Origin: a virus | IMG/VR virus record: IMGVR_UViG_3300005747_000220 | Location: 1 to 24,193 of that record | Strand: one strand, 5' to 3' | Length of the DNA stretch: 24,193 bases | Shown here: positions 4,556-21,151 of the stretch, one piece after another | Position numbering within the stretch: position 1 is the stretch's first letter | How the letters are laid out: every line of letters starts with the position of its first letter | Notes under the pieces: generated by a model | What the model saw: the letters and a program-made list of their open reading frames with translations, nothing else | Told to the model about the DNA's origin: nothing | The model's database searches: none | Made by a program: the position numbers and the translations under genes

Positions 4556-4777
4556 TTAATTGGCTGTAATTGTGCCTGTAACGTGTCCATTTGCGTCACG
4601 TATGGTGTAAACAGTTGAACTGCTACTGCTACCGCACCAATTGGGCATTGTGGTGTTGTTTAGACTTGCTTGCAAACAAGGATCTTGGCTGTCATAAAAG
4701 TCTGCTACAGTTGAGCATCCTGACAATAACAAAAATATTACAACAAACAAAATAAAAATTAAAGGTGTGTATTTCAT
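4556..4777 (-). CDS. Small lipoprotein
   Basis: This 73-aa protein has a classical lipoprotein signal: MKYT, a hydrophobic stretch (residues 5-18) and the lipobox LLSGC with the modified Cys at residue 21. The +2 residue is Ser, which in Gram-negative hosts favours the outer membrane. The mature part is about 53 residues, Ser/Thr/Asn-rich, with two further Cys (DPCLQ and NWCGSS) that could form a disulfide in the periplasm, followed by a short YTIRDANGHVTGTITA beta-rich tail. It starts inside the stop of the GIY-YIG gene (ATGA overlap). Possible roles are an outer-membrane spanin partner or a superinfection-exclusion lipoprotein. No inner-membrane spanin is obvious beside it, so the role stays open. 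Confidence 0.8.
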   Translation of the reverse strand: MKYTPLIFILFVVIFLLLSGCSTVADFYDSQDPCLQASLNNTTMPNWCGSSSSSTVYTIRDANGHVTGTITAN

Positions 4778-5175
4778 TTTAAACCTCTGGCAGTTAATCT
4801 GCCGCCTATGTAACCATTGTAGTAGGTGTCATCTAATAGAACGTTGTGATCAAACTGTAGTTTCATTTCCCAGTAGGTCATTTGGTTCTTGTTCTCACAA
4901 AGATGTAGTATCTCTTTGTGTAGGGTATTTGGACTGTAAGCGTCTATGTCTTTCAACAGTTCTTCACATGACCCACAGTATTGCTGCCAATTGCTCTCCA
5001 TGCGTCTATGACGCCTATTGGTCTTACCCTTTAAAGGTTTGAGTTTGCGAGTCGTCCAAAAGTTCTTTTTGCCAATATACTTGCGATTGGTTAGTGTATT
5101 GACGATTAGATAAACAAATCCTTGACAGTGTTCAGGGGCAGTGTCAAAAAGATTATTATTGTAGTACCATGTCAT
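4774..5175 (-). CDS. GIY-YIG nuclease-like protein
   Basis: This 133-aa protein is a putative DNA endonuclease. It shows the two hallmark strands of the GIY-YIG fold: GFVYLIVN (residues 19-26, the GIY position) and KYIGKKNFW (32-40, the YIG position). A following basic region (TTRKLKPLKGK) could hold the catalytic Arg. Glu103 in YWEMKLQF and Asn120 in YYNGYIGGRL sit at the usual positions of the catalytic Glu and the conserved Asn. It overlaps its upstream neighbour by 20 nt and the lipoprotein by 4 nt, so it is embedded in the terminase operon. It could be a homing endonuclease or, more interestingly, a packaging-associated nuclease taking the place of the HNH proteins seen beside terminases in other phages. 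Confidence 0.78.
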   Translation of the reverse strand: MTWYYNNNLFDTAPEHCQGFVYLIVNTLTNRKYIGKKNFWTTRKLKPLKGKTNRRHRRMESNWQQYCGSCEELLKDIDAYSPNTLHKEILHLCENKNQMTYWEMKLQFDHNVLLDDTYYNGYIGGRLTARGLK

Positions 5176-7718: not shown

Positions 7719-8056
7719 TATGCCGCTCTGTTTACGCACTTGAGTCTAAAGTTTCTTCTGTCAGTAACACCATTGCCAGTAACAACTTTGGCAGTAACAA
7801 TATAGGTTTTGTTTAGTTGTCCGCCACTGAGCTCAACATAGGTGTCAGTGTCATTGTCAGTGATGCCGCTTGATACTATCACTGGTGGTGTTGGATCATT
7901 TATTCTTGCAGCCACACTATAGTTTACAGTTGCAATAGTATCGCCACTGTCTAGCCATGTGCTCCAGTCAAAGGTGTATATCATCTGTGCTTCTACATCT
8001 TTGTCTATTTCTAATCCTTGATTGGTTTGAAAAAAACCTGCTCTGTTATTACTCAT
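7718..8056 (-). CDS. Conserved virion-associated protein, FDWSTWL type (112 aa)
   Basis: The protein has an all-beta, Ig-like look: YTFDWSTWLDSGDTIATVNY, then a PVIVSSGITDNDTDTYVELSG segment and ending with KTYIVTAKVVTGNGVTDRRNFRL. The YxFDWSxWL...GDTI pattern is one I recall from small phage proteins lying beside tail fibres; their function is not known to me. The stop of the 903-aa fibre gene overlaps its start (TAATG), so the two are translationally coupled, suggesting a stoichiometric partner such as a fibre decoration or connector. Confidence 0.7.
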   Translation of the reverse strand: MSNNRAGFFQTNQGLEIDKDVEAQMIYTFDWSTWLDSGDTIATVNYSVAARINDPTPPVIVSSGITDNDTDTYVELSGGQLNKTYIVTAKVVTGNGVTDRRNFRLKCVNRAA

Positions 8057-10767
8057 TATAGTTCTCCTAGTGTAAACTTTCTTGTTTCTTTGTGAATGGT
8101 GTGTGTTCTTGTTTCTTTGTTTATGCTAAACACTCTTGTTTCTTTTGGTACAATGTACACATATCTTGTGGTGTCAATTAGTGTGCCAATTGCAGTTTGT
8201 GTAAACGCACAAGATAGGCTGCTGCTTGCATCTGCCTGTACGCCCGCTGTACACGCTATGCTAGCGGTGTTTACAAGCCCTACTGTTGTTTGTTTAATTA
8301 TGCCAAAGTCTGCGCTTAGTGTAGCTTGTACGCTTGCTGTAGTGCTTGTGTCTGTTGTTTTAACAGCGTCTATGCTTGCAGTTGTTGTTGCTGCTAAGTC
8401 AATGTCACCTGCGAGACCTGCAACTGCTGTTATACTTGGGCTAAACACACCTGACAGTGTTGCACTGGCTTCAATATTCTTGATGCCTTGTGTTGTTTGT
8501 GTTGCTGTAACTGTTAAATCTGCACTTGTGGTTCTTGTTATTTCAACTGCACACACAATTGTTGCTGTTACACTGCCTGCAAATGTAGTTGTGCCCAAGA
8601 ACTTAACGCCAGTTGCAGTTGCACTAAATGCACTGTCTAAATCAGCAATCAGTCCTTCTGCGCGGATACCTGTGGCTGCTAGTGTTGCAGTTGTGCTTAG
8701 ATCAACAATTGAGCCTGCTACCAAATCACCATCTACAGTTGTTGTTGCAGTTGCATCTAAGTCGCTTGCGCCGCTGCGTATTCTATCAGCACTTGCAGTT
8801 ATTGTTGCTGTTGTGCTTAGACTTGCTGCACCACTTGCAGTTCTTACTACATCAACAGCCAGTGTAGCACGTGGTTCAATGTCAATAAAGAAGTCGCCTA
8901 TTCTACCTGCGGCAATCAGTGTTGAAACAAATGCATCTAAGTCACTTTGAAGTTGTTTGATGTTTAGAGCTTGTGCAGTTATACTTGCAACCGCACTAGG
9001 TGCAGCGTTTGCGCCTGCTGTTAGGTTAACAATTGCTGTCTGTGAGAATGCGCTGGCAATGCTACTTGCACCCTGTTGTATTCTAGTTGCAGTTGCAGTT
9101 GCACTAAATGCGCTAGAGATGTTACTTGCGCCTTGTTGTATTTTATCTGCGGTTGCAGTTGCACTAAATGCACCGGTTAAATCTGCGTCTATGTCAATTA
9201 TTTTATCAACGTCTACTGATATAGTTGCAGTAATAGTTAAATCTGCGTCTGCATCTAGTGTGTTGCCTGCAGATGCTGTAAGTGTAGCAGTTGAAGCAAG
9301 TGTTGCAGCAGCGTCTAATGTAAAATTAATTACATAATCATCTAGTGTTTGTTCAAACTGGTGATATAAAACTGCGGTATCAGTGTTAGGTGGATTTCTA
9401 ACTGGTCCTGAATCGTTTACTCTAAATGTTACTAAATCAAATCTTGGATATGGTCCAGCAGCATTTGAATTGCCTTCTGGATTGTACAGTGTAATTTGAC
9501 TTATGTCTGAATATAACTTGCCGTTGTAGGTTTCACTGCCAACTTCAATATTTCCGTAATAAAAGGTAAAATCATTGCCTACTCGTTGCAAAGTAAAGTT
9601 GTTTGCAATTTCAGTAAGACTGCCAACCTGAGCTGTAGTAGCAGTTATTGTTATATAACTACCGTTTTGTTTGCGTATTTTTACACTTGGTAATTCAACC
9701 GTATCACTTTGTCTTTCATAACCAAAGTTAATGGTGTTGTCCATACTAACATGTGTTGGAGTTCCGCTGATATCAACTACTGTGTTGAATCCTTCACCAG
9801 CACTAAGTATTGTGCTGTCTGCAATGGTTGTTGTTCCATCATTCTGTTTGTGATACACGTGAAGATAAAAATCATCTTTGTCGTCTTTATCAATACTGTC
9901 AAAAGTTGCTGCAAGTGCAACTGTTTCTGCGGTTACACTAGTTTCTTCTAATTCAATCATGTAATCTAGATAGTAACTACTACTAGTATTGCTTACATAA
10001 TTGTAAACTGTATTGTCAGTTTGCCAACGTGTAGCTGAAGGCCGTGCTGTGCTATAATTGTATGCAACAAAGTCATTTGGGCGTCCAAAATTTAAATTAC
10101 GCAATGAATCAGCAGTTAGTGTAAATGCACTGCTTAAAGTTTCATTTAGTTGTTTGATTATGCCAACATCTGCACTTAAACTTGCTGTGTTGTGCAAGTC
10201 TATGCTGCCATTCAAACTTGCTGTTGCAGTGATAGTTGGAGAGAACGTACCTGTTAAATCTGCACTCAGTTGTTTGATTATGCCAACATCTGCACTATGC
10301 CCAAAAGAAACCGCTAGTGAACTTGATGTGCTTCTTGTTCTACTAGCGGTTGAAGTAGCTGCGAATGCCGCAGCGAGTGCCATTGCATTGTCGCGGATCC
10401 TAGCTGCTTGTAGACTTAGGTTAACAATATTATTAAGAGTGACATCAGTTGAACGTGTTCGCACAAAGTTGGCATTGAATCCAGCTTGTGCAGCCATATC
10501 AATTGAGCCATTACGACTTGCAACTGCTAATATACTTGGCGTAAACACACCTGATAGACTTATATTAGCCTGTTGTAATCGTCCGGCAGTTGCAGTTGCA
10601 GTTGTGCTTACACTAAGAGTGGCAGTTGCTTCAAGTACAGCACCTTCTTCTTGGAAATAATTTGCAGTAATGTAGCCATCTTCAATATAAGGTTCATAGC
10701 GAATGTAACCTTCTTCAATGTAGTCTTCTACATAATAATAACCTAAATCGTCGCCTGTTCGTGCCAT
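8056..10767 (-). CDS. Large repetitive tail fibre protein (903 aa)
   Basis: This is a fibre-like receptor-binding candidate. The N-terminus carries acidic tyrosine repeats (VEDYIEEGYI, EPYIEDGYI; residues about 13-36). Most of the protein is a low-complexity Ala/Thr/Ser fibre made of 20-residue units such as ATATRIQQGASSIASAFS and VGIIKQLSADLTGTFSPT. A globular, aromatic-rich domain interrupts the fibre at about residues 225-460 (beta-rich, likely lectin- or ConA-like, from style only). The C-terminus is three 10-residue strands: IVPKETRVFS, INKETRTHTI and IHKETRKFTL, a terminal motif I associate with marine phage tail proteins. The ATG has an AAGGA site. The antisense strand shows long open frames because of the codon bias of the repeats. 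Confidence 0.78.
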   Translation of the reverse strand: MARTGDDLGYYYVEDYIEEGYIRYEPYIEDGYITANYFQEEGAVLEATATLSVSTTATATAGRLQQANISLSGVFTPSILAVASRNGSIDMAAQAGFNANFVRTRSTDVTLNNIVNLSLQAARIRDNAMALAAAFAATSTASRTRSTSSSLAVSFGHSADVGIIKQLSADLTGTFSPTITATASLNGSIDLHNTASLSADVGIIKQLNETLSSAFTLTADSLRNLNFGRPNDFVAYNYSTARPSATRWQTDNTVYNYVSNTSSSYYLDYMIELEETSVTAETVALAATFDSIDKDDKDDFYLHVYHKQNDGTTTIADSTILSAGEGFNTVVDISGTPTHVSMDNTINFGYERQSDTVELPSVKIRKQNGSYITITATTAQVGSLTEIANNFTLQRVGNDFTFYYGNIEVGSETYNGKLYSDISQITLYNPEGNSNAAGPYPRFDLVTFRVNDSGPVRNPPNTDTAVLYHQFEQTLDDYVINFTLDAAATLASTATLTASAGNTLDADADLTITATISVDVDKIIDIDADLTGAFSATATADKIQQGASNISSAFSATATATRIQQGASSIASAFSQTAIVNLTAGANAAPSAVASITAQALNIKQLQSDLDAFVSTLIAAGRIGDFFIDIEPRATLAVDVVRTASGAASLSTTATITASADRIRSGASDLDATATTTVDGDLVAGSIVDLSTTATLAATGIRAEGLIADLDSAFSATATGVKFLGTTTFAGSVTATIVCAVEITRTTSADLTVTATQTTQGIKNIEASATLSGVFSPSITAVAGLAGDIDLAATTTASIDAVKTTDTSTTASVQATLSADFGIIKQTTVGLVNTASIACTAGVQADASSSLSCAFTQTAIGTLIDTTRYVYIVPKETRVFSINKETRTHTIHKETRKFTLGEL
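9061..9180 (-). repeat. Two tandem 60-nt repeats in the fibre gene
   Basis: Positions 9061-9120 and 9121-9180 are near-identical 60-nt units encoding the 20-residue module (RIQQGASSIASAFSATAT and KIQQGASNISSAFSATAT). They share blocks such as TTGCAGTTGCACTAAATGC (plus strand). The high DNA identity points to recent duplication or ongoing unit exchange. Confidence 0.8.
10148..10296 (-). repeat. 29-nt exact repeat spaced by 120 nt in the fibre gene
   Basis: A 29-nt stretch at 10148-10176 recurs exactly at 10268-10296, a spacing of two 60-nt modules. It encodes SADVGIIKQL; a diverged version lies near 8290-8320. The repeat supports a 20-residue (60-nt) building unit over much of the gene. Confidence 0.75.
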
Positions 10768-12694: not shown

Positions 12695-14578
12695 TTAATC
12701 CCAATAGCCTTTGAATGTGGTTGTTGTGCCTGTTAGCAGTGTTGCACCACCTGTGGGCAGTGTTCCAAATGTAGTAATTACATCTATCTGTGCGCCAGCT
12801 GCTGTTGCACTAGAGTCAATATTAACAGTTGAATCTATTGATATTGCTGCACTTGCTTCACCTGGGTTGGTTACACTTAGTGTGCTAGGAACTGCTACTC
12901 CGCCTGTGCTTGCCAACGGTAAAAATGCTGTTTTCTTTGCTACAATTGATTTAAGACGCTGTGTGTCCACGTCAAATGTACCACACCACATAATAGGCAC
13001 TTCAATATATTCACAATCAAAATCGCCTTCTTTAGGTGTGCTAGGCGGTAAGTCTGATGTTGGACCAGTTGTTGCATTGTTGGTAAGTGTAATAGTTTCT
13101 ACATTGTTACTAACTACACAGGGGTTATCTAAACTGTCGCCTACTGTAACATTTATACTTTCACTTGCATTAAAGGCACTGTCGTCTGTGGTTGTAATAT
13201 TTAGAGTAGCACTGTTGCTGTTGATTGTAACTGTGCCTGTTAAACTAGGTGATGAAACTTTTGGTGATCCATTGCCACCAATAGTATAATTTAGTGTTGT
13301 GCCGTTTGAATAACCTACAGTTGTAATTGTAACTGTGGTTGAGTTACCTTCTTGAATTGTAGTAGGTGATGCCACAACATCTTGTACATATTCAGTAGGT
13401 GCTGGCTTTACTACTACCTGTGTGGTGTTGCTGCCAACTGTGATAGTCATTGTTTTTTCTGTAGCAACTGTTGGTGTAACAACCAGCGTAGCATCAGTTG
13501 TTCCTGTGGTTGTAAGTGTGCCTGTTAGGGGTACATCTATTTCACCTGCTGTAACACCTGTAATTGTATATTCATAATCAAATTCAGGACTGCTAAAGAA
13601 ACAACTTTCGCAATCATGTCCAACACTTATTGTTACAGGACTTCCGCTACACAAATCATCAACACTGCTGGCAATGTCAGCAACTGGTTTTGCAACACTT
13701 GATATTGCTGCTTGGATATTTTCATCTGCAAACTTGCCTTCATTGATAATTGCACCAGTATCTTCATCAACTGTAAACAAACTGTTAATCAGCCCCAGTG
13801 CAGCATTTGCAGCAAGCAATCCGCCCATTTGTTTGCCCATACTAATATCATCTTTAAGATCCAGTTCTTCACTCAACAGTTTTGATTTGATGCCTGTAAA
13901 GTTGGAACGATATTCGTATGTTAATCCGCTAGTACCATTTGCGTTGTTGAATCCTACAGTTTCGTCATAGATGTTTGCATCGTATTCTTGTGCGGTAATA
14001 CTGTAGATTAAGTTGCCATCTTCTTCATCTTCTTCTTCAATTTGTATAACTCTAAACAGTTTGTTGGTAAAATTTAATGCACTATTTGTAATATCAACAA
14101 CATCGCCTGCACGTACAGTATTTGCTTCAAAGTTAGCACGGAATTCAATTATTTTATCAAGTCTACTTTGTTTTAGTTCGCGACTGGCAATGTATGCTGC
14201 CTGCACTGGCTCATTTACAATTGGTATACTTAATTCAAGAACATTGTCTATTTCTTGTGCAAATCTGTCAGCTGTAGGAACAGTTAATTGTATTTCGTCT
14301 GTGGTATCTCTTGTGTCTTTGTTGGGAAATCTTGCAATCACACTGTTGTACAATTCATTTACGCCAGTACCACCTACATTTATTTCACCTAGTATGTTTG
14401 AGTCATCAAAAGTCCTAGCACTAGCAGAAGTTGTGTTAAGAATAACAATCCACTTGCCTTGTGTTGGATCCCATGTCAAATAACATCCGCTTACGTTTGC
14501 TAATTCATTAAGATTATCCAACACATTATTATTTGTATCTATTAATCCGTTAATTTTAAATCTATTTGTTGTGGCCAT
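12695..14578 (-). CDS. Tail-tip J-like protein, C-terminal half plus Ig/Calx-beta-like modules (627 aa)
   Basis: Residues 1-230 match the style of the central part of lambda J-type tail-tip proteins: NRFKINGLIDTNNNV, LANVSGCYLTWDPTQGKW, GVNELYNSVIARFPN, QAAYIASRELKQSRLD, and the VRAGDVVDITN...FRVIQIEEE strand pair. A helical spacer (about 235-300) leads to Ig-like modules at about 315-400 and a Calx-beta-like repeat at about 405-500 (VQDVVASPTTIQEGNSTTVT). A C-terminal domain contains a Cys-containing CEYIEVPIMWCGTF motif. The family normally continues directly from a segment ending like RYGAGIPAAEIE, which here ends a separate gene 2.4 kb upstream; the intervening gene is an insertion. The ATG has an AGGATAAACAG site. 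Tail-tip baseplate/receptor role expected. Confidence 0.8.
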   Translation of the reverse strand: MATTNRFKINGLIDTNNNVLDNLNELANVSGCYLTWDPTQGKWIVILNTTSASARTFDDSNILGEINVGGTGVNELYNSVIARFPNKDTRDTTDEIQLTVPTADRFAQEIDNVLELSIPIVNEPVQAAYIASRELKQSRLDKIIEFRANFEANTVRAGDVVDITNSALNFTNKLFRVIQIEEEDEEDGNLIYSITAQEYDANIYDETVGFNNANGTSGLTYEYRSNFTGIKSKLLSEELDLKDDISMGKQMGGLLAANAALGLINSLFTVDEDTGAIINEGKFADENIQAAISSVAKPVADIASSVDDLCSGSPVTISVGHDCESCFFSSPEFDYEYTITGVTAGEIDVPLTGTLTTTGTTDATLVVTPTVATEKTMTITVGSNTTQVVVKPAPTEYVQDVVASPTTIQEGNSTTVTITTVGYSNGTTLNYTIGGNGSPKVSSPSLTGTVTINSNSATLNITTTDDSAFNASESINVTVGDSLDNPCVVSNNVETITLTNNATTGPTSDLPPSTPKEGDFDCEYIEVPIMWCGTFDVDTQRLKSIVAKKTAFLPLASTGGVAVPSTLSVTNPGEASAAISIDSTVNIDSSATAAGAQIDVITTFGTLPTGGATLLTGTTTTFKGYWD

Positions 14579-14583
14579 TCTGT

Positions 14584-16974
14584 TTATCCTGCGTTTGTTA
14601 TTGTAACAATTTTATCTTCAGTGTTTGTTTCTGGAGTTTCTATTGTATATGTTAATTCAATATTACTAATACTAGAACTTGTTAGTGTAATTGTATCTAT
14701 ATCATTATTAACATCAGTTTTTGAACCTATTACTTGGTATGTTTTTGCAACACTGTCAAATGTACCTGGTTTAGGACCATCTGTGTATGTAACAAATCCC
14801 ATATCATTATTGCTGTTGATGCCAGTACCAATTACTTCACTGCCATCTAAATTAAGTTGCCAGTCATATATTGTGTTTAAATAAGAACTTAAATCAATTG
14901 TTCTATCTTCTGTAAATGTATTAGTTGATTCGTCAAATTCAATTCTAATAAAATCAAAATCACTAGATGAATTAACCAATTTTATAACAACGGCGGTTCC
15001 GTCATCGCTTGCTTTCATTTCATAAAAGGATGAACTAGGTGTAAAGCTGGTGGTCTGTGTGTAAGTTTGCGGAGCACTTCCTGTGCCTCTTGTCATTACA
15101 TAAAGATTGGTGCCGTCACCGTAAAGATATCTAGTTCCATCTTGAGTAAAATAACTGTAACGTGTTGTGTTTGCTACTTTTTCGTCTAATGTCCAAGTGC
15201 TACCACTACCAGTATAATAATAGGTATCATTGTCACCAAGTCCGTCAGTTATTGCTAATCTTGTACCATCTGAAGACAATCTACATTGAGCCCAGCCAAA
15301 GCTGCTACTATAATCAGTGTCTGGATCTAGTATAGTTGTTTGTCGGCTGTAATTTCCTGTGCCTGTTCTTGTATAAATGTGAACACGCCCTTCTCTGTTT
15401 TCACCAGTATCTGTATCAGTTGGTTCAGCAATAGCAAGTGTGTCGCCGTCTCTGCTGCAACTCATCTGTTGTCCAAAGAATGCATCAGTGTTATTTCCTG
15501 GTGGACTTAGTGTTTGTGCAAGACTCCAAGTATTGCCTACACCTCTTTCATAAACAAATACTCTACCAATAGGGTCATTGATATCTCCGCCTGCATTGTA
15601 GTACATTCCGCTTGAGAGAATAGTATCGTCATCTGCCATTATTATACGTCTACCTAAATTTGCATAATAATTACTGCCAAACACTGTTTTAACCAAACTA
15701 TATTCTTGTCCTGTTTTTATAAACCAATGCAATGCGCCACCGTTGGTAGTATTAGTATCATCACCTGCGTTGCCAATAACAAGTACACTGTTTGAGCTGC
15801 CATAGGCTCCTGCAAGTAATGCACCTGTTGAACTTGCAGTATATGTATATTCTTGCTCTGCTCCCCAACCGCTTATGCCAGTAGATGTTATATTTTGAAC
15901 TTGACTAGTAACACTGGGTGTTAGTGTTAGTGTATAATTTCCAGATGCTGTATAATCAATATCATAAATTTGCGGACCATCTAAACCAATATTACTTGCT
16001 GTACTGGTGGTATATGTTGCAGATCCTCTTGGTTCTGTTAGATAATCCAAGTTTAAACAATTTAGTGTTTGTCTAACAGTGTACGTTATGCCTGGGTCAT
16101 CATCATTACTGCCTGCATATGTAAAGAATGCGTCTGATTTAGTGCTGGTAGTTGTTAGACTTATTGAATTTAAATGCGATTCAACTTGTGTTTCAGTACC
16201 AGTTAGTGTTAAAACTTTTGAAGTAGAATTAAACGAGCTAGTGCCGCCTGAGCCGCTGCTGCTCATTGTGTCAACAATAGTTGTTGTACTAGGAGTTACT
16301 GTAACAGTCCAAATTTCTGTGCCGTCGCCACCTTCATAAACAATAGTTGGATTGCCTGTAACTGTTTGTGTAGTAGATTTAAGAAAATCAAACGTGCTAG
16401 GACCACTAAATCCAGCATTTGATAATTCTGAAGTAACATTAAAATAACAATTTATTGAGCAACTAGTAGTTCTTGTTCTTGTAAATGCTGCTGATAAACT
16501 TGCACTAGATATAAAATTTGAAACTGGAACAAATGTACCCACTTGCCAACTTTCTTCTTGAATACCTTGAGGAGTGTTATATCTAATAGTTACAATATAA
16601 AAGAAGCTGCCTTGAAAAGTGTCAGGTACTGTAATTAATGGAGCTCTAACTGTTTCCCAATCACTAATACTATCAATGCCTTGCATAATAAACACACCAT
16701 TACTAGATACAACATTGCATCCACTAGGCGTTGTAGTCCAACTAACAGTTGCGCCTGAAACTCCACTAACATCTATTTCGTATTCAACTAATGCACTTGT
16801 AGGAGTTATAATCTCTTCAATTTCATTAGTACGCTGAACAGTAAATGTTTGTGTTTCAACTGTAAAACTTAAATCTCTACTAGTGGGCCACGCTAACACT
16901 ACACCATATGGACGATTTTCAGTAAATGTAATTGTATTGTCTGAATAATTATTAAGTTCTGTTAAACTGCTCAT
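14584..16974 (-). CDS. Beta-propeller adhesin inserted in the tail-tip gene (796 aa)
   Basis: This is an inserted adhesin. The N-terminal SLTELNNYSDNTITFT (residues 3-18) looks like a piece of the J-type tail-tip sequence that belongs between the neighbouring two genes. Then follow beta-sandwich modules (about 20-150), a Cys-containing segment (170-182), and a repeat whose strands FNSTSKVLTLTGTETQ and VESHLNSISLT appear at about 248-275. The second copy of that repeat (FDSVAKTYQVIGSKTD, DIDTITLTSSS) is at about 739-768. Between them, about 372-731, lies an FG-GAP/integrin-like propeller with repeats such as WSLAQTLSPPGNNTDAFFG and FGWAQCRLSSDGTRLAITDG. It overlaps the upstream gene by 4 nt. 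I infer receptor binding; no enzymatic motif is seen. Confidence 0.75.
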   Translation of the reverse strand: MSSLTELNNYSDNTITFTENRPYGVVLAWPTSRDLSFTVETQTFTVQRTNEIEEIITPTSALVEYEIDVSGVSGATVSWTTTPSGCNVVSSNGVFIMQGIDSISDWETVRAPLITVPDTFQGSFFYIVTIRYNTPQGIQEESWQVGTFVPVSNFISSASLSAAFTRTRTTSCSINCYFNVTSELSNAGFSGPSTFDFLKSTTQTVTGNPTIVYEGGDGTEIWTVTVTPSTTTIVDTMSSSGSGGTSSFNSTSKVLTLTGTETQVESHLNSISLTTTSTKSDAFFTYAGSNDDDPGITYTVRQTLNCLNLDYLTEPRGSATYTTSTASNIGLDGPQIYDIDYTASGNYTLTLTPSVTSQVQNITSTGISGWGAEQEYTYTASSTGALLAGAYGSSNSVLVIGNAGDDTNTTNGGALHWFIKTGQEYSLVKTVFGSNYYANLGRRIIMADDDTILSSGMYYNAGGDINDPIGRVFVYERGVGNTWSLAQTLSPPGNNTDAFFGQQMSCSRDGDTLAIAEPTDTDTGENREGRVHIYTRTGTGNYSRQTTILDPDTDYSSSFGWAQCRLSSDGTRLAITDGLGDNDTYYYTGSGSTWTLDEKVANTTRYSYFTQDGTRYLYGDGTNLYVMTRGTGSAPQTYTQTTSFTPSSSFYEMKASDDGTAVVIKLVNSSSDFDFIRIEFDESTNTFTEDRTIDLSSYLNTIYDWQLNLDGSEVIGTGINSNNDMGFVTYTDGPKPGTFDSVAKTYQVIGSKTDVNNDIDTITLTSSSISNIELTYTIETPETNTEDKIVTITNAG

Positions 16975-17735
16975 TGTGCTTCAATCTCCGCTGCTGGTAT
17001 ACCTGCTCCATAGCGTGTATTAGTCATATAATCAAATAAACAATCACCTGGCTCTGTCATAGTATTGCTTAATTTAAATTTAATTTCTCTGCCTATTGAA
17101 GTTAGTTTTTTGGTTTGTTCGCTGCTGTATCTAAACTTCATAATACAAAATACCAAGTCATTCATTGTGTCTGTAGTGGTCCATCCAGGCATAATTGAAT
17201 ATGCTGGTTGTGTGTTGCCTGCGCTTTCTGTGTAAAAGCTAACAGGACTTGTGCTGCCGCCACTAAATGGATATACTTCAATTAGGTCTGCCCACTGATC
17301 GCTGTTGTTGGCACTGTCGTCCCAAATAGTTTGTACAGTTGTGCCGTCAGCCTTAAATCCAAGACGCATACCGTCAACATAGATTTCTTTGAAACTAATT
17401 GCACTGGCTGTTCCGTCAATTTTATTGCCTGTTTTTTCACACAAGGTAAAACACACCCACATGTCAAAATTGTTGTCTGCCATAACTGCATCTGTAATCT
17501 TGCCAGTAACAAAGCCTTCGCCGTACAACACTGGAACGCTGTATTCTGTGTCTGGATCAAGGGTAAATTGTGTGCCTTTGTCCTGTTGTTGATTTGCTTT
17601 CTGTGCGCTTGATGCTACACGATTTAAGGCATAACCTAACAGTGCAGTTCTTGCTAGTTGACTGCCTATGCTTGATCCTGATACAAATCCAAATGCTTTT
17701 TTGCCAAAGCCTACTATACTATCTATAAAACTCAT
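16971..17735 (-). CDS. Tail-tip J-like protein, N-terminal part (254 aa)
   Basis: The N-terminus has FGKKAFGFVSGSSIG and a helical region ending in QDKGTQFTLDPDTEYSVPVL. The body, with VLYGEGFVTGKITDAV, MWVCFTLCEKTGNKI, EIYVDGMRLGFK and MNDLVFCIMKFRYS, corresponds in style to the N-terminal domain of J-type tail-tip proteins. It stops at CLFDYMTNTRYGAGIPAAEIEAQ, where the J family would continue with a short linker and the FKING-type segment found in the gene at 14578. The stop overlaps the next start (ATGA). It is likely that this and the 627-aa gene form the tail tip together as separate chains. Start ATG at 17735 overlaps the upstream gene by 4 nt. Confidence 0.78.
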   Translation of the reverse strand: MSFIDSIVGFGKKAFGFVSGSSIGSQLARTALLGYALNRVASSAQKANQQQDKGTQFTLDPDTEYSVPVLYGEGFVTGKITDAVMADNNFDMWVCFTLCEKTGNKIDGTASAISFKEIYVDGMRLGFKADGTTVQTIWDDSANNSDQWADLIEVYPFSGGSTSPVSFYTESAGNTQPAYSIMPGWTTTDTMNDLVFCIMKFRYSSEQTKKLTSIGREIKFKLSNTMTEPGDCLFDYMTNTRYGAGIPAAEIEAQ

Positions 17736-18325
17736 TGTGGTGCTCCAAAATTAAACTTTGTACCTTTTAGTGTTGGAACTCTGTCCATTGAAGTGTCTGC
17801 AGAGAAAAATGTCTTTTGACTTTGTGGATTTGTTTTGCGTCCTGCTATTTTTTGGGTCAACAATCCTACACTGCTTGCACATTCTAACATCAACATATGC
17901 GAACTGGTTCTTGATTCAATGTCAAATTCTTCTTGAATACTATAGTTGTTCACACTGCCTATAAATCTACCTGTAAAATCACCTATTTGTGTTCCAGCAA
18001 CTGTGTAATAGCCACGATATATTTTAATTGGTGAGCCTTTGATTTTGCTGTGTATAATTTCATTTATATTGTCAGTAGGAATACCACTAATTGCTATGGT
18101 TACAGGATTTTCACTTGGGCGTAATTCACTGGTGCTTGCAGTAATGCTTAGAAATTCACCTAATGGCGTGTATGCTTCAGTGTTGATTGTTTGCACACTG
18201 TCGTAATCGCTGAATTTCAATACTTGATTTGTATATGCACCGCCGCTTGTGGTTCTATATTCGTCTATCTGCAAACGCACAAACAATCCTACTTTTACAC
18301 TGGTGTATGAGTCTAAATTAGGCAT
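17732..18325 (-). CDS. Minor tail / tail-tip protein (197 aa)
   Basis: The protein is a beta-rich phage tail component. Typical parts are LFVRLQIDEYRT, TPLGEFLSITASTSELRPSENPVTIAISGIP (about residues 54-84), and PIKIYRGYYT...GDFTGRFIGSVNNYSIQEEFD (about 97-135), a layout I know from hub-like proteins between tape measure and tail tip (the gpL/K region of lambda-type tails, or DUF2163-like). Start and stop touch the neighbours (TAA directly followed by ATG on one side and a 4-nt overlap on the other). No Cys cluster of the lambda gpL Fe-S type is visible; only one Cys in MLECASS. Confidence 0.7.
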   Translation of the reverse strand: MPNLDSYTSVKVGLFVRLQIDEYRTTSGGAYTNQVLKFSDYDSVQTINTEAYTPLGEFLSITASTSELRPSENPVTIAISGIPTDNINEIIHSKIKGSPIKIYRGYYTVAGTQIGDFTGRFIGSVNNYSIQEEFDIESRTSSHMLMLECASSVGLLTQKIAGRKTNPQSQKTFFSADTSMDRVPTLKGTKFNFGAPQ

Positions 18326-18721: not shown

Positions 18722-21151
18722 TTATCTCCTTATTGGCACTTTGCGAGCGCCTTGTTGTGCAACTGCGTGTATAAAGCCAGGGTCTCTTGCAACCATTGAT
18801 TTAAAACTTGGGGCATCTACTGCATTGATATTGTAAACAACTTGTGTGCCGCTGCCTCCACCATTAAAGTTGCCCATTGGTGTAATGTTAGCTGGACCAC
18901 TTACGAGTTCTGGACCACGTTCTCCTACAACACCAAACTGTCCTGCAGGTATCATACCGCCGTTTGCAAAGAATCCAGCGAACGGACTTGAACCGCCTCC
19001 GCCTCCGCCAAAGGCACCAAACGTGCTTGCAATTAATCTTTGTATTTGGCTGCGCAATAATTCTTCAAGTATTGTGTTTACCAAATCTTTAAATTCAAAC
19101 TTGCCTGTCTTAGCAAAGCTTACAATAGCATCTTCCATGCTTTTTGTTGTTTTGTTAAACAGTCTTTCTGCTTGTTGTCCTGCGTTTGTAGCATTGTCAG
19201 CATAATCTTCATATGCTTTTTTCCAACCGTTTGCAAATGTTGATTGAGCTCGTTTAACACGTTCTTCTTCATCTTTTTCACGTTGTTTTCTTTGTTCTTG
19301 TATTTGTGAAATCTTTTGTTCATTTGCCTCAATACTTCTAGCTGATGCTTGTCTGCTTGTAATTGCTGTTTGAGTAGCTTTATCAATTTTTGCAAGTTGT
19401 TTTTCAATTTCATTTGCATCAAGACCTTCGCTTTGTGCTCTAAGTCGTGCTTTGGCTACATCAGCAAGGCGTATTTCTTGAAGTTCTATTGCTTTTAATT
19501 CGCGTTCTAATCCTTCTAATCCGCTTAGTGTTACACTTTCTTCACTTTGACGTATTCTTGCATTAATTGCATCAACTGCTGATTGTGTATCGTCTGTTAA
19601 ACCTTGTAATTTATTTGCTAATTCGTCTGCTTTGTTACTTGTGGTATCAAAACTATTAGTTAATGCATCCATTGCAAATGCATACGTGTCAACTGATATT
19701 TTGCCTTCAGATAGTTGTTCTTCTAAACGTGCTATTGCCAGTGCAGTAAATTCAACTTCTTCACTTGCATTATTAGCATTATCTATTATGCTGTTATAGA
19801 ATTTTTGAAAGCCTTCTTCTTCACCAAGTTCATTTGCTGCTTCTTTTAAACTTTGTACTTTTTCTCTTGAAGCAGTTAATTGATTTTCTGCGCCGCGCAA
19901 CAATTCAATAAAATTATCAACTTGTCCATTGCTTCTTTCAAATGCTAGATGTAATTGTTCAATTACAATTTCTGCATCTACAATTGCTTGATTGGCTTTT
20001 TCTAATTCAGTTCTGTAGTCTGTGTCTGCAAATTTTCTTGCTTGATCTATAAATTTTTGATGCGGTGCTAATATTGCATTTAAAGCATCTTCTTGTTTTT
20101 TAAGAGCTGCTGCTTCTGCTTCTGCTGCTTTTGCTGCTTCTTCATCTGCTGCAATACGTTTTTCTAATTCTACAACAAGTTCTTGAATTGCTGCTTTTTG
20201 ATCATTAATAATGGTGTTTGTAGTAACAAACCCTCTGCCGCCTGCTACTTGGCTTTTTACTAAATCGCCAAATTTAAAATTTAGTTCTTCAACAGCTTGT
20301 GCAGCACTTAAACTGCCTTCTGCAACCTTATCCATAATTTCACTAGGATCTAGATTAACTAATGCGCCTTCTGTTTCTCCAATTGCATCTGCTGTTCTTG
20401 TTAAACTTTTTAGTATAGTTTCATATGATCTAGTAATGCCACTTGCTTCGCCTATTTTAACAGCTACTCTATCAAATGCATCACTTAGTCCTTGTTCTAA
20501 TTGATCAATTGTAGGTCTTGTTTTATTAAACGCATCACTGAGAGCTTCTGAACTTTCAACCATATTAAAGAACGTTTCAGCAGTAAGTTCACCTGCTTGA
20601 CTCATTTGTCGTAGTTTGCCTACTGTGAGTCCGCTTTCTGTAGCCATAATAGCAAGAGCAGGTCCTAGTGCTTCAACAATTGAATTAAATTCATCGCCAC
20701 GCACTGTGCCTGACGCCATGGCTTGTCCAAATTGTCTAATAGCACCAGCAGCAGTTCCTGCATCAGCGCCTGATATAGCAAGTGCTTGTTGGAATTTGCC
20801 AGTAACACCTAATACTCTGTCTTGTTCAATGCCCAAATCAGCAGTTGCAAGTGTTAATTTTGTAAACAAGTCAACTGTATCACCAAAAGCAGCACGATTT
20901 GATATTGCTGCTTGTGTTAATTGACCTGTTAATTCTACTAATTCTTCTTGGCTGTCTGTAATTAACCTTAATTGGTTAGTATAGGTTTGCATTGTACGTG
21001 TAGAATCAACAATTGCTTTAGCAAAACCCGCAGCAGCTGCCGCAGCAGCCGCAAACCCTACTGTTTTTAATGTTGCACTTAATTTACCTAAGGCAGCTGT
21101 TGACCCTTTTGTGTCTACTTCTAATACATAACGATCTTTTATTGTTGCCAT
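18722..21151 (-). CDS. Tail tape measure protein (809 aa)
   Basis: This gene sets tail length. Residues about 29-48 are an Ala-rich hydrophobic helix (TVGFAAAAAAAAGFAKAIVD). A tape-measure N-terminal domain follows at about 56-210, with QLRLITDSQEELVELT, AISGADAGTAAGAIRQFGQAM, GTVRGDEFNSIVEALGPALA and LRQMSQAGELTAETFF. Long coiled-coil segments cover about 330-650. The C-terminus is Gly-rich with FANGGMIPAGQFGVVGERGPE and a FIHAVAQQGARKVPIRR tail. At about 0.15 nm per residue an 809-aa tape measure predicts a tail near 120 nm, so a siphovirus with a long non-contractile tail (no sheath gene seen). The start has an AAGGG site. Confidence 0.93.
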   Translation of the reverse strand: MATIKDRYVLEVDTKGSTAALGKLSATLKTVGFAAAAAAAAGFAKAIVDSTRTMQTYTNQLRLITDSQEELVELTGQLTQAAISNRAAFGDTVDLFTKLTLATADLGIEQDRVLGVTGKFQQALAISGADAGTAAGAIRQFGQAMASGTVRGDEFNSIVEALGPALAIMATESGLTVGKLRQMSQAGELTAETFFNMVESSEALSDAFNKTRPTIDQLEQGLSDAFDRVAVKIGEASGITRSYETILKSLTRTADAIGETEGALVNLDPSEIMDKVAEGSLSAAQAVEELNFKFGDLVKSQVAGGRGFVTTNTIINDQKAAIQELVVELEKRIAADEEAAKAAEAEAAALKKQEDALNAILAPHQKFIDQARKFADTDYRTELEKANQAIVDAEIVIEQLHLAFERSNGQVDNFIELLRGAENQLTASREKVQSLKEAANELGEEEGFQKFYNSIIDNANNASEEVEFTALAIARLEEQLSEGKISVDTYAFAMDALTNSFDTTSNKADELANKLQGLTDDTQSAVDAINARIRQSEESVTLSGLEGLERELKAIELQEIRLADVAKARLRAQSEGLDANEIEKQLAKIDKATQTAITSRQASARSIEANEQKISQIQEQRKQREKDEEERVKRAQSTFANGWKKAYEDYADNATNAGQQAERLFNKTTKSMEDAIVSFAKTGKFEFKDLVNTILEELLRSQIQRLIASTFGAFGGGGGGSSPFAGFFANGGMIPAGQFGVVGERGPELVSGPANITPMGNFNGGGSGTQVVYNINAVDAPSFKSMVARDPGFIHAVAQQGARKVPIRR

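Follow-up and report, generated by a model that had tools for sequence, protein, structure and literature searches.

A tail hub divided into separate chains around a probable exchangeable receptor-binding gene in an uncultured virus of bacteria

Tail genes in the window

The window analyzed here is a 24,193-nt stretch of DNA (positions 1-24,193) of IMGVR_UViG_3300005747_000220, the record of an uncultured virus of bacteria. Its tail genes follow a hub-type order (tape measure, distal tail protein, L-like protein, hub): the minus strand carries in succession the tape measure gene (18722-21151), the gene of a 129-aa tail protein, which is the distal tail protein as assigned by position only, that of a 197-aa L-like tail protein, and those of three chains designated N, M, and C (Table 1). 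N and M overlap by 4 nt in an ATGA, and a 5-nt gap separates M from C. N ends with ...TRYGAGIPAAEIEAQ, M begins with MSSLTELNNYSDNTITFT, and C begins with MATTNRFKINGLID. Re-reading the window showed the open reading frame coordinates, the ATGA overlap, the 5-nt gap, and the sequence quotes of the first-pass annotation all to be correct.

Table 1. Positions in the window of the hub chains, their parts, and adjoining signals
Feature	Position	Strand	Counterpart or remark
L-like tail protein, 197 aa, probable hub domain I chain	17732..18325	-	directly upstream of N
N, first hub chain, 254 aa	16971..17735	-	T5 pb3 ~210-485; lambda gpJ ~19-299 (hub domain II and its insertion)
Shine-Dalgarno GGAGAT before M start	16984..16989	-	within N coding sequence
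M, adhesin chain between N and C, 796 aa	14584..16974	-	
M residues 1-21, hub-linker anchor peptide	16912..16974	-	best-conserved stretch of M
M residues 22-165, beta domain	16480..16911	-	
M residues 367-735, beta-propeller with FG-GAP repeat	14770..15876	-	candidate receptor-binding module
Shine-Dalgarno AGGA before C start	14587..14590	-	
C, second hub chain, 627 aa	12695..14578	-	Pfam Phage-tail_3; phrog_5616
C residues 1-210, conserved hub part	13949..14578	-	T5 pb3 522-718

The L-like gene also overlaps N by an ATGA and is kept upstream of N in related loci. Its product matched the phrog_2048 tail protein (1.6e-16) and the phrog_778 tail assembly protein (0.013), and a profile search against PDB sequences gave no significant match; gene order suggests that it would be the hub domain I chain. 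This protein contains only one cysteine and therefore seems to lack the 4Fe-4S cluster site of lambda gpL. Residues 1-65 of N (window 17540-17735) are partly hydrophobic and were modeled with low confidence. They may be a plug segment as in T5 pb3, since the L-like gene and N are not separated by a gpK or gpI gene. Elsewhere in the window, a SegE-type GIY-YIG endonuclease gene (4774-5175; Pfam PF19835, E 7.8e-34) lies two genes from the terminase gene, and positions 8056-10767 encode a 903-aa protein with degenerate alanine/threonine-rich repeats and no family match, at the matching place of which relatives also have long open reading frames.

N and C as consecutive parts of one hub, with the M gene between them

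Profiles built from 16 relatives of N and 15 relatives of C matched neighboring regions of known hubs: the N profile matched T5 pb3 260-478 (E 0.0044), and the C profile matched the DT57C hub (8hqz; 1.1e-16) and T5 pb3 522-718 (1.3e-14). C additionally carries Pfam Phage-tail_3 (PF13550) at residues 17-181 (6.2e-6) and matches positions 295-500 of the 873 in phrog_5616, and in sequence it looks like a J-type protein minus its first ~290 residues. The AlphaFold2 model of N was confident over residues 65-254, and residues 57-254 superposed on pb3 210-485 (VIA-align; Z 10.2, 159 residues, rmsd 2.5 Å), with lower scores against a GTA tail protein (Z 7.2) and lambda gpJ 19-299 (Z 4.6-5.0); Foldseek likewise returned a pb3/gpJ-type hub for this model (2.2e-4, prob 1.00). 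The superposition of N and the profile match of C together place the end of N at pb3 485 (gpJ 299) and the start of C at pb3 522, the latter in agreement with the classical Tal similarity, which begins at gpJ 326-330 and pb3 ~530 (PMC7291167). N thus provides the domain II part and C the Phage-tail_3 part of a T5 pb3/lambda gpJ-type hub. Our sequence profiles, plus the structure comparison for N, showed that the two chains follow each other within one T5/lambda-type tail hub, which bears out the earlier proposal that N and C together correspond to a single J-type chain, as both match pb3 in order and the N model superposes on it.

Comparison with three close relatives revealed strong purifying selection on N (dN/dS 0.07-0.11) and on C residues 1-210 (0.08-0.10), and weaker selection on M (0.16-0.45 for residues 1-150); the rest of C gave values of 0.21-0.25. 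C has a long fast-evolving tail, and more fibre-like genes lie downstream of it.

The closest cultured homologue of N and C is the host specificity protein J of Methylophilaceae phage P19250A, which differs from them in being an uninterrupted single chain of 1099 aa. In it the corresponding stretch RYGAAIPVENIDT-TSLTALNTYSNQTITYT-LYSGGTSTMKRFEFNGTLD is continuous, so that ...RYGAAIPVENIDTTSLTALNTYSNQTITYTLYSGGTSTMKRFEFNGTLD... in the intact J compares with ...RYGAGIPAAEIEAQ (N), MSSLTELNNYSDNTITFTENRP... (M), and MATTNRFKINGLID... (C) in the window. This alignment, suggested in the first-pass annotation, revealed that P19250A carries in one chain a linker nearly identical to the start of M. 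A position-specific score matrix derived from 48 M starts and tested against 200 shuffles found its best position in the P19250A J exactly at the N-like/C-like junction (score 27; 0/200 shuffles equal), as it did in the 16 single-chain rows of the same clade, 17 of 17 in all. Shuffles reached the score in 0-7 of 200 cases in every row except L120 (16/200), and the linker match is far beyond chance. The motif was not found at the junction in the more distant single-chain J proteins of HTVC202P, HTVC111P, HTVC112P, and L113. Residues 1-21 are the most conserved part of M, with N8 and R21 invariant, and were modeled with a pLDDT of about 61 when M was modeled alone; the M start of one three-chain locus, L086, is without the anchor motif. 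At the level of sequence, these comparisons showed the first ~21 residues of M to correspond to the hub's own helix-and-strand linker, and the earlier claim that M begins with the missing J linker is upheld by the position of the motif in the 17 single-chain relatives.

Behind the anchor follows a beta domain, whose strands (residues 24-149) were mostly modeled with a pLDDT of about 80-94 and which all but one of the 56 three-chain loci have and all one- and two-chain loci lack. The alignment of M dissolves beyond residue ~165. In the window, residues 367-735 superpose on beta-propellers (Z about 23, VIA-align), and M has a Pfam FG-GAP_2 match (8.6e-6). Among 16 M chains, modules were glycine-rich in eight, FG-GAP in two, and a laminin-G lectin in one; the insert of L086 (2814-5997) opens with laminin-G and later contains RCC1-type modules. 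A one-base difference between L077 (2227-4040) and L078 breaks M in L077 only, which is probably a sequencing error. No named phage yielded any match to M.

The similarity of M is discordant with that of the hub. Relative to L001, the window is 92% identical in N and 94% in C residues 1-208, but M matched over ~165 residues only (47%); relative to L002, N (91%) and C (88%) are no closer, yet the same propeller-bearing M is shared (67% over the full length), while L003 and L002 are 96% identical in C residues 1-207 and differ in the body of M. From this discordance, M beyond residue ~165 was shown to be exchanged between phages with near-identical hubs. Since M bodies swap and carry differing modules, M can be likened to receptor-binding proteins, with which it shares a conserved N-terminal anchor and a variable, exchangeable C-terminal body; on domain types and variability only, M is probably a receptor-binding protein.

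Chain states among relatives

Viral contigs were scanned with N, C, the C profile, L104, and a one-chain query, and loci from named phages were added. Removal of near-copies reduced the 128 loci with both hub parts to 82 distinct ones, of which 56 had insert genes separating N from C, 5 were two-chain, and 21 were one-chain, counts that reflect the queries and not natural frequencies. Searching bacterial genome contigs with the C profile identified no relative. The three-chain layout spans N identities down to ~38%; far from being an oddity of one phage, it is old and conserved. Uninterrupted J genes, which the first-pass annotation had recommended looking for, do exist: besides P19250A, an intact J occurs in HTVC202P, HTVC111P, and 13 distinct same-clade viral contigs, the two parts being separated by about 21-29 residues.

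The earlier view that an insertion broke the chain is contradicted by loci broken at the same ATGA/GTGA point with no insert. In L134-L137, the same ATGA overlap is followed by a second chain that goes from the linker straight into C, and in L104, known from a single contig, the break is a GTGA and the second chain begins with the linker. L138 (2751-4390), the one contig of its kind known, has two tandem adhesin genes between N and C, encoding MSSLSNLNTYAQDSIDF... (138 aa) and MTALTALNDYSNSTIDLS... (408 aa, with a weak laminin-G match); both products carry the anchor motif and both genes start by ATGA overlaps. A search for relatives of the second L138 adhesin returned only itself. The J of Pelagibacter phage HTVC112P (L032:4410-5000) resembles these arrangements in having an adhesin-type PA14/GLEYA domain within the same linker and differs in being an unbroken single chain. 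Therefore, as L138, HTVC112P, and the two- and three-chain forms indicate, the linker site takes inserts in several ways. The J of Kolga was not counted as carrying an insert, because its extra residues precede the DYLTN helix (judged by eye).

The direction of these changes was examined in a tree of N and C, which requires five state changes. Same-clade one-chain rows, L134-L137, and L138 group together, and L104 falls among the three-chain rows. The three-chain split may be the older state in this clade, with one- and two-chain members derived by loss of M and re-fusion. When the tree is rooted on distant single-chain J proteins, the one- and two-chain forms nest inside the three-chain ones; the insert-free L104, nested among three-chain loci, retains the D-x-R motif of M, and a clade of all one-chain rows alone was rejected (p 0.019). 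Against this, the root branch to the distant J outgroup is very long, a grouping that holds the one-chain rows and L134-L137 together with P19250A was not rejected (p 0.166), and a single-chain J is the rule among the examined homologues outside the clade. We regard the matter as evenly balanced, and an older three-chain state is compatible with the organization favored below.

Organization of the hub and its meaning

We consider it likely that the hub encoded at this locus is split and that its anchor segment is carried by the interchangeable receptor-binding chain M. A siphophage hub of the T5 pb3/lambda gpJ type would be made from the separate chains N, M, and C, which presumably come together in one tip. 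In all three hub subunits, the first ~21 residues of M would dock between N and C; three arms formed by M would then extend from the tail tip, with the M body predicted to bind the host surface. As M is tied to the hub by a short conserved peptide and the adjoining domain only, the rest of it can be swapped by recombination without disturbing the hub, and such exchange would enable related phages to recognize a different surface structure. Because domains II and III of pb3 turn together as a rigid body on opening (PMC10038345), an arm fixed between the corresponding parts might, by analogy and as a matter of speculation, influence opening. A stronger version, in which the hub is complete only with the segment supplied by M, coupling receptor binding to opening, and in which the tandem adhesins of L138 compete for three sites and give particles of mixed specificity, appears to us rather doubtful.

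Less probable still is a hub split into N and C of which M is no part, M being a fibre or accessory gene with a leftover linker at its N-terminus and attached elsewhere. This alternative draws on the conserved domain of its own at M residues 22-165 and on the anchorless M start of L086. However, a leftover would decay, whereas no part of M is better conserved than the anchor, even among loci with unrelated bodies; it also occurs on both tandem adhesins of L138, and nothing in N or C replaces the linker.

The ATGA overlap found at the N/M junction in most loci might also point to one fused polypeptide made by programmed frameshifts or stop-codon readthrough. Of 53 three-chain loci, 42 had a GGAG-type site at this junction, as did all 5 two-chain loci, whereas none of 12 one-chain loci had one at the same place. 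A purine-rich site precedes the C start in 50 of 54 cases, compared with 6.6% of internal ATGs. The N and M starts are related by two frames (51 and 8 of the 59 loci), and the M and C starts by all three (28, 20, and 6 loci). The conserved Shine-Dalgarno sites and the changing frames at both junctions strongly indicate that N, M, and C are translated separately, aided by these sites and by ATGA coupling at N/M. Programmed frameshifting was ruled out, as the frame relations are not constant among loci, and a fused product is highly improbable. An origin of the breaks in sequencing or assembly errors, or in decay of a J gene, has next to no likelihood: a one-base frame difference of this sort does occur between the near-identical L077 and L078, but error was ruled out by a layout common to 56 distinct contigs and by the Shine-Dalgarno site at each start, and the hub parts are under strong purifying selection.

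The split hub favored here has partial precedents. N and C match consecutive parts of the T5 pb3/DT57C hub in sequence profiles, and N also in structure, but pb3 is a single chain comprising hub domains I-IV, and the present break, with its adhesin gene, falls between pb3 ~485 and ~522. Known hubs comprise one to three chains; in lambda (L/I/J) and GTA (13/15), the split lies ahead of the domain II insertion or inside it (PMC13243795, PMC10721106). Our locus resembles lambda gpL/gpI/gpJ and the R. capsulatus GTA hub (gp13)/megatron (gp15) in its multi-chain hub and in the match of N to gpJ 19-299 and the GTA tail protein; it differs in a further split after the N part and in that the inserted chain is a variable adhesin, not a plug protein. 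In evolved Dit/Tal proteins of Gram-positive siphophages, carbohydrate-binding modules occupy loops of either the hub or the distal tail protein (PMC7291167). A binding-type module (propeller, glycine-rich, or lectin) at the hub linker, pb3 ~485 to ~522, is shared with them, but there the module belongs to the same polypeptide, whereas here it is a separate gene with the linker as anchor, as concluded from separate start codons with Shine-Dalgarno sites and inconstant frames. A literature search of partial coverage, in itself weak evidence, found no hub split at this point and no report on the P19250A J. Split hubs and hub-loop adhesins are each known, and their combination, a split hub with an exchangeable linker-anchored adhesin gene, appears to be a new variant.

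Collectively, these loci form a natural series comprising hubs of one, two, and three chains, tandem adhesins, and an insert within a single chain, all at the same site, which illustrates how a conserved injection machine gains new recognition parts. Together, the break point and the anchor peptide mark out a port in the tail hub. For annotation, a gene lying between two J fragments in many uncultured phages can be taken as a candidate receptor-binding protein, a class that is normally hard to spot in viral contigs.
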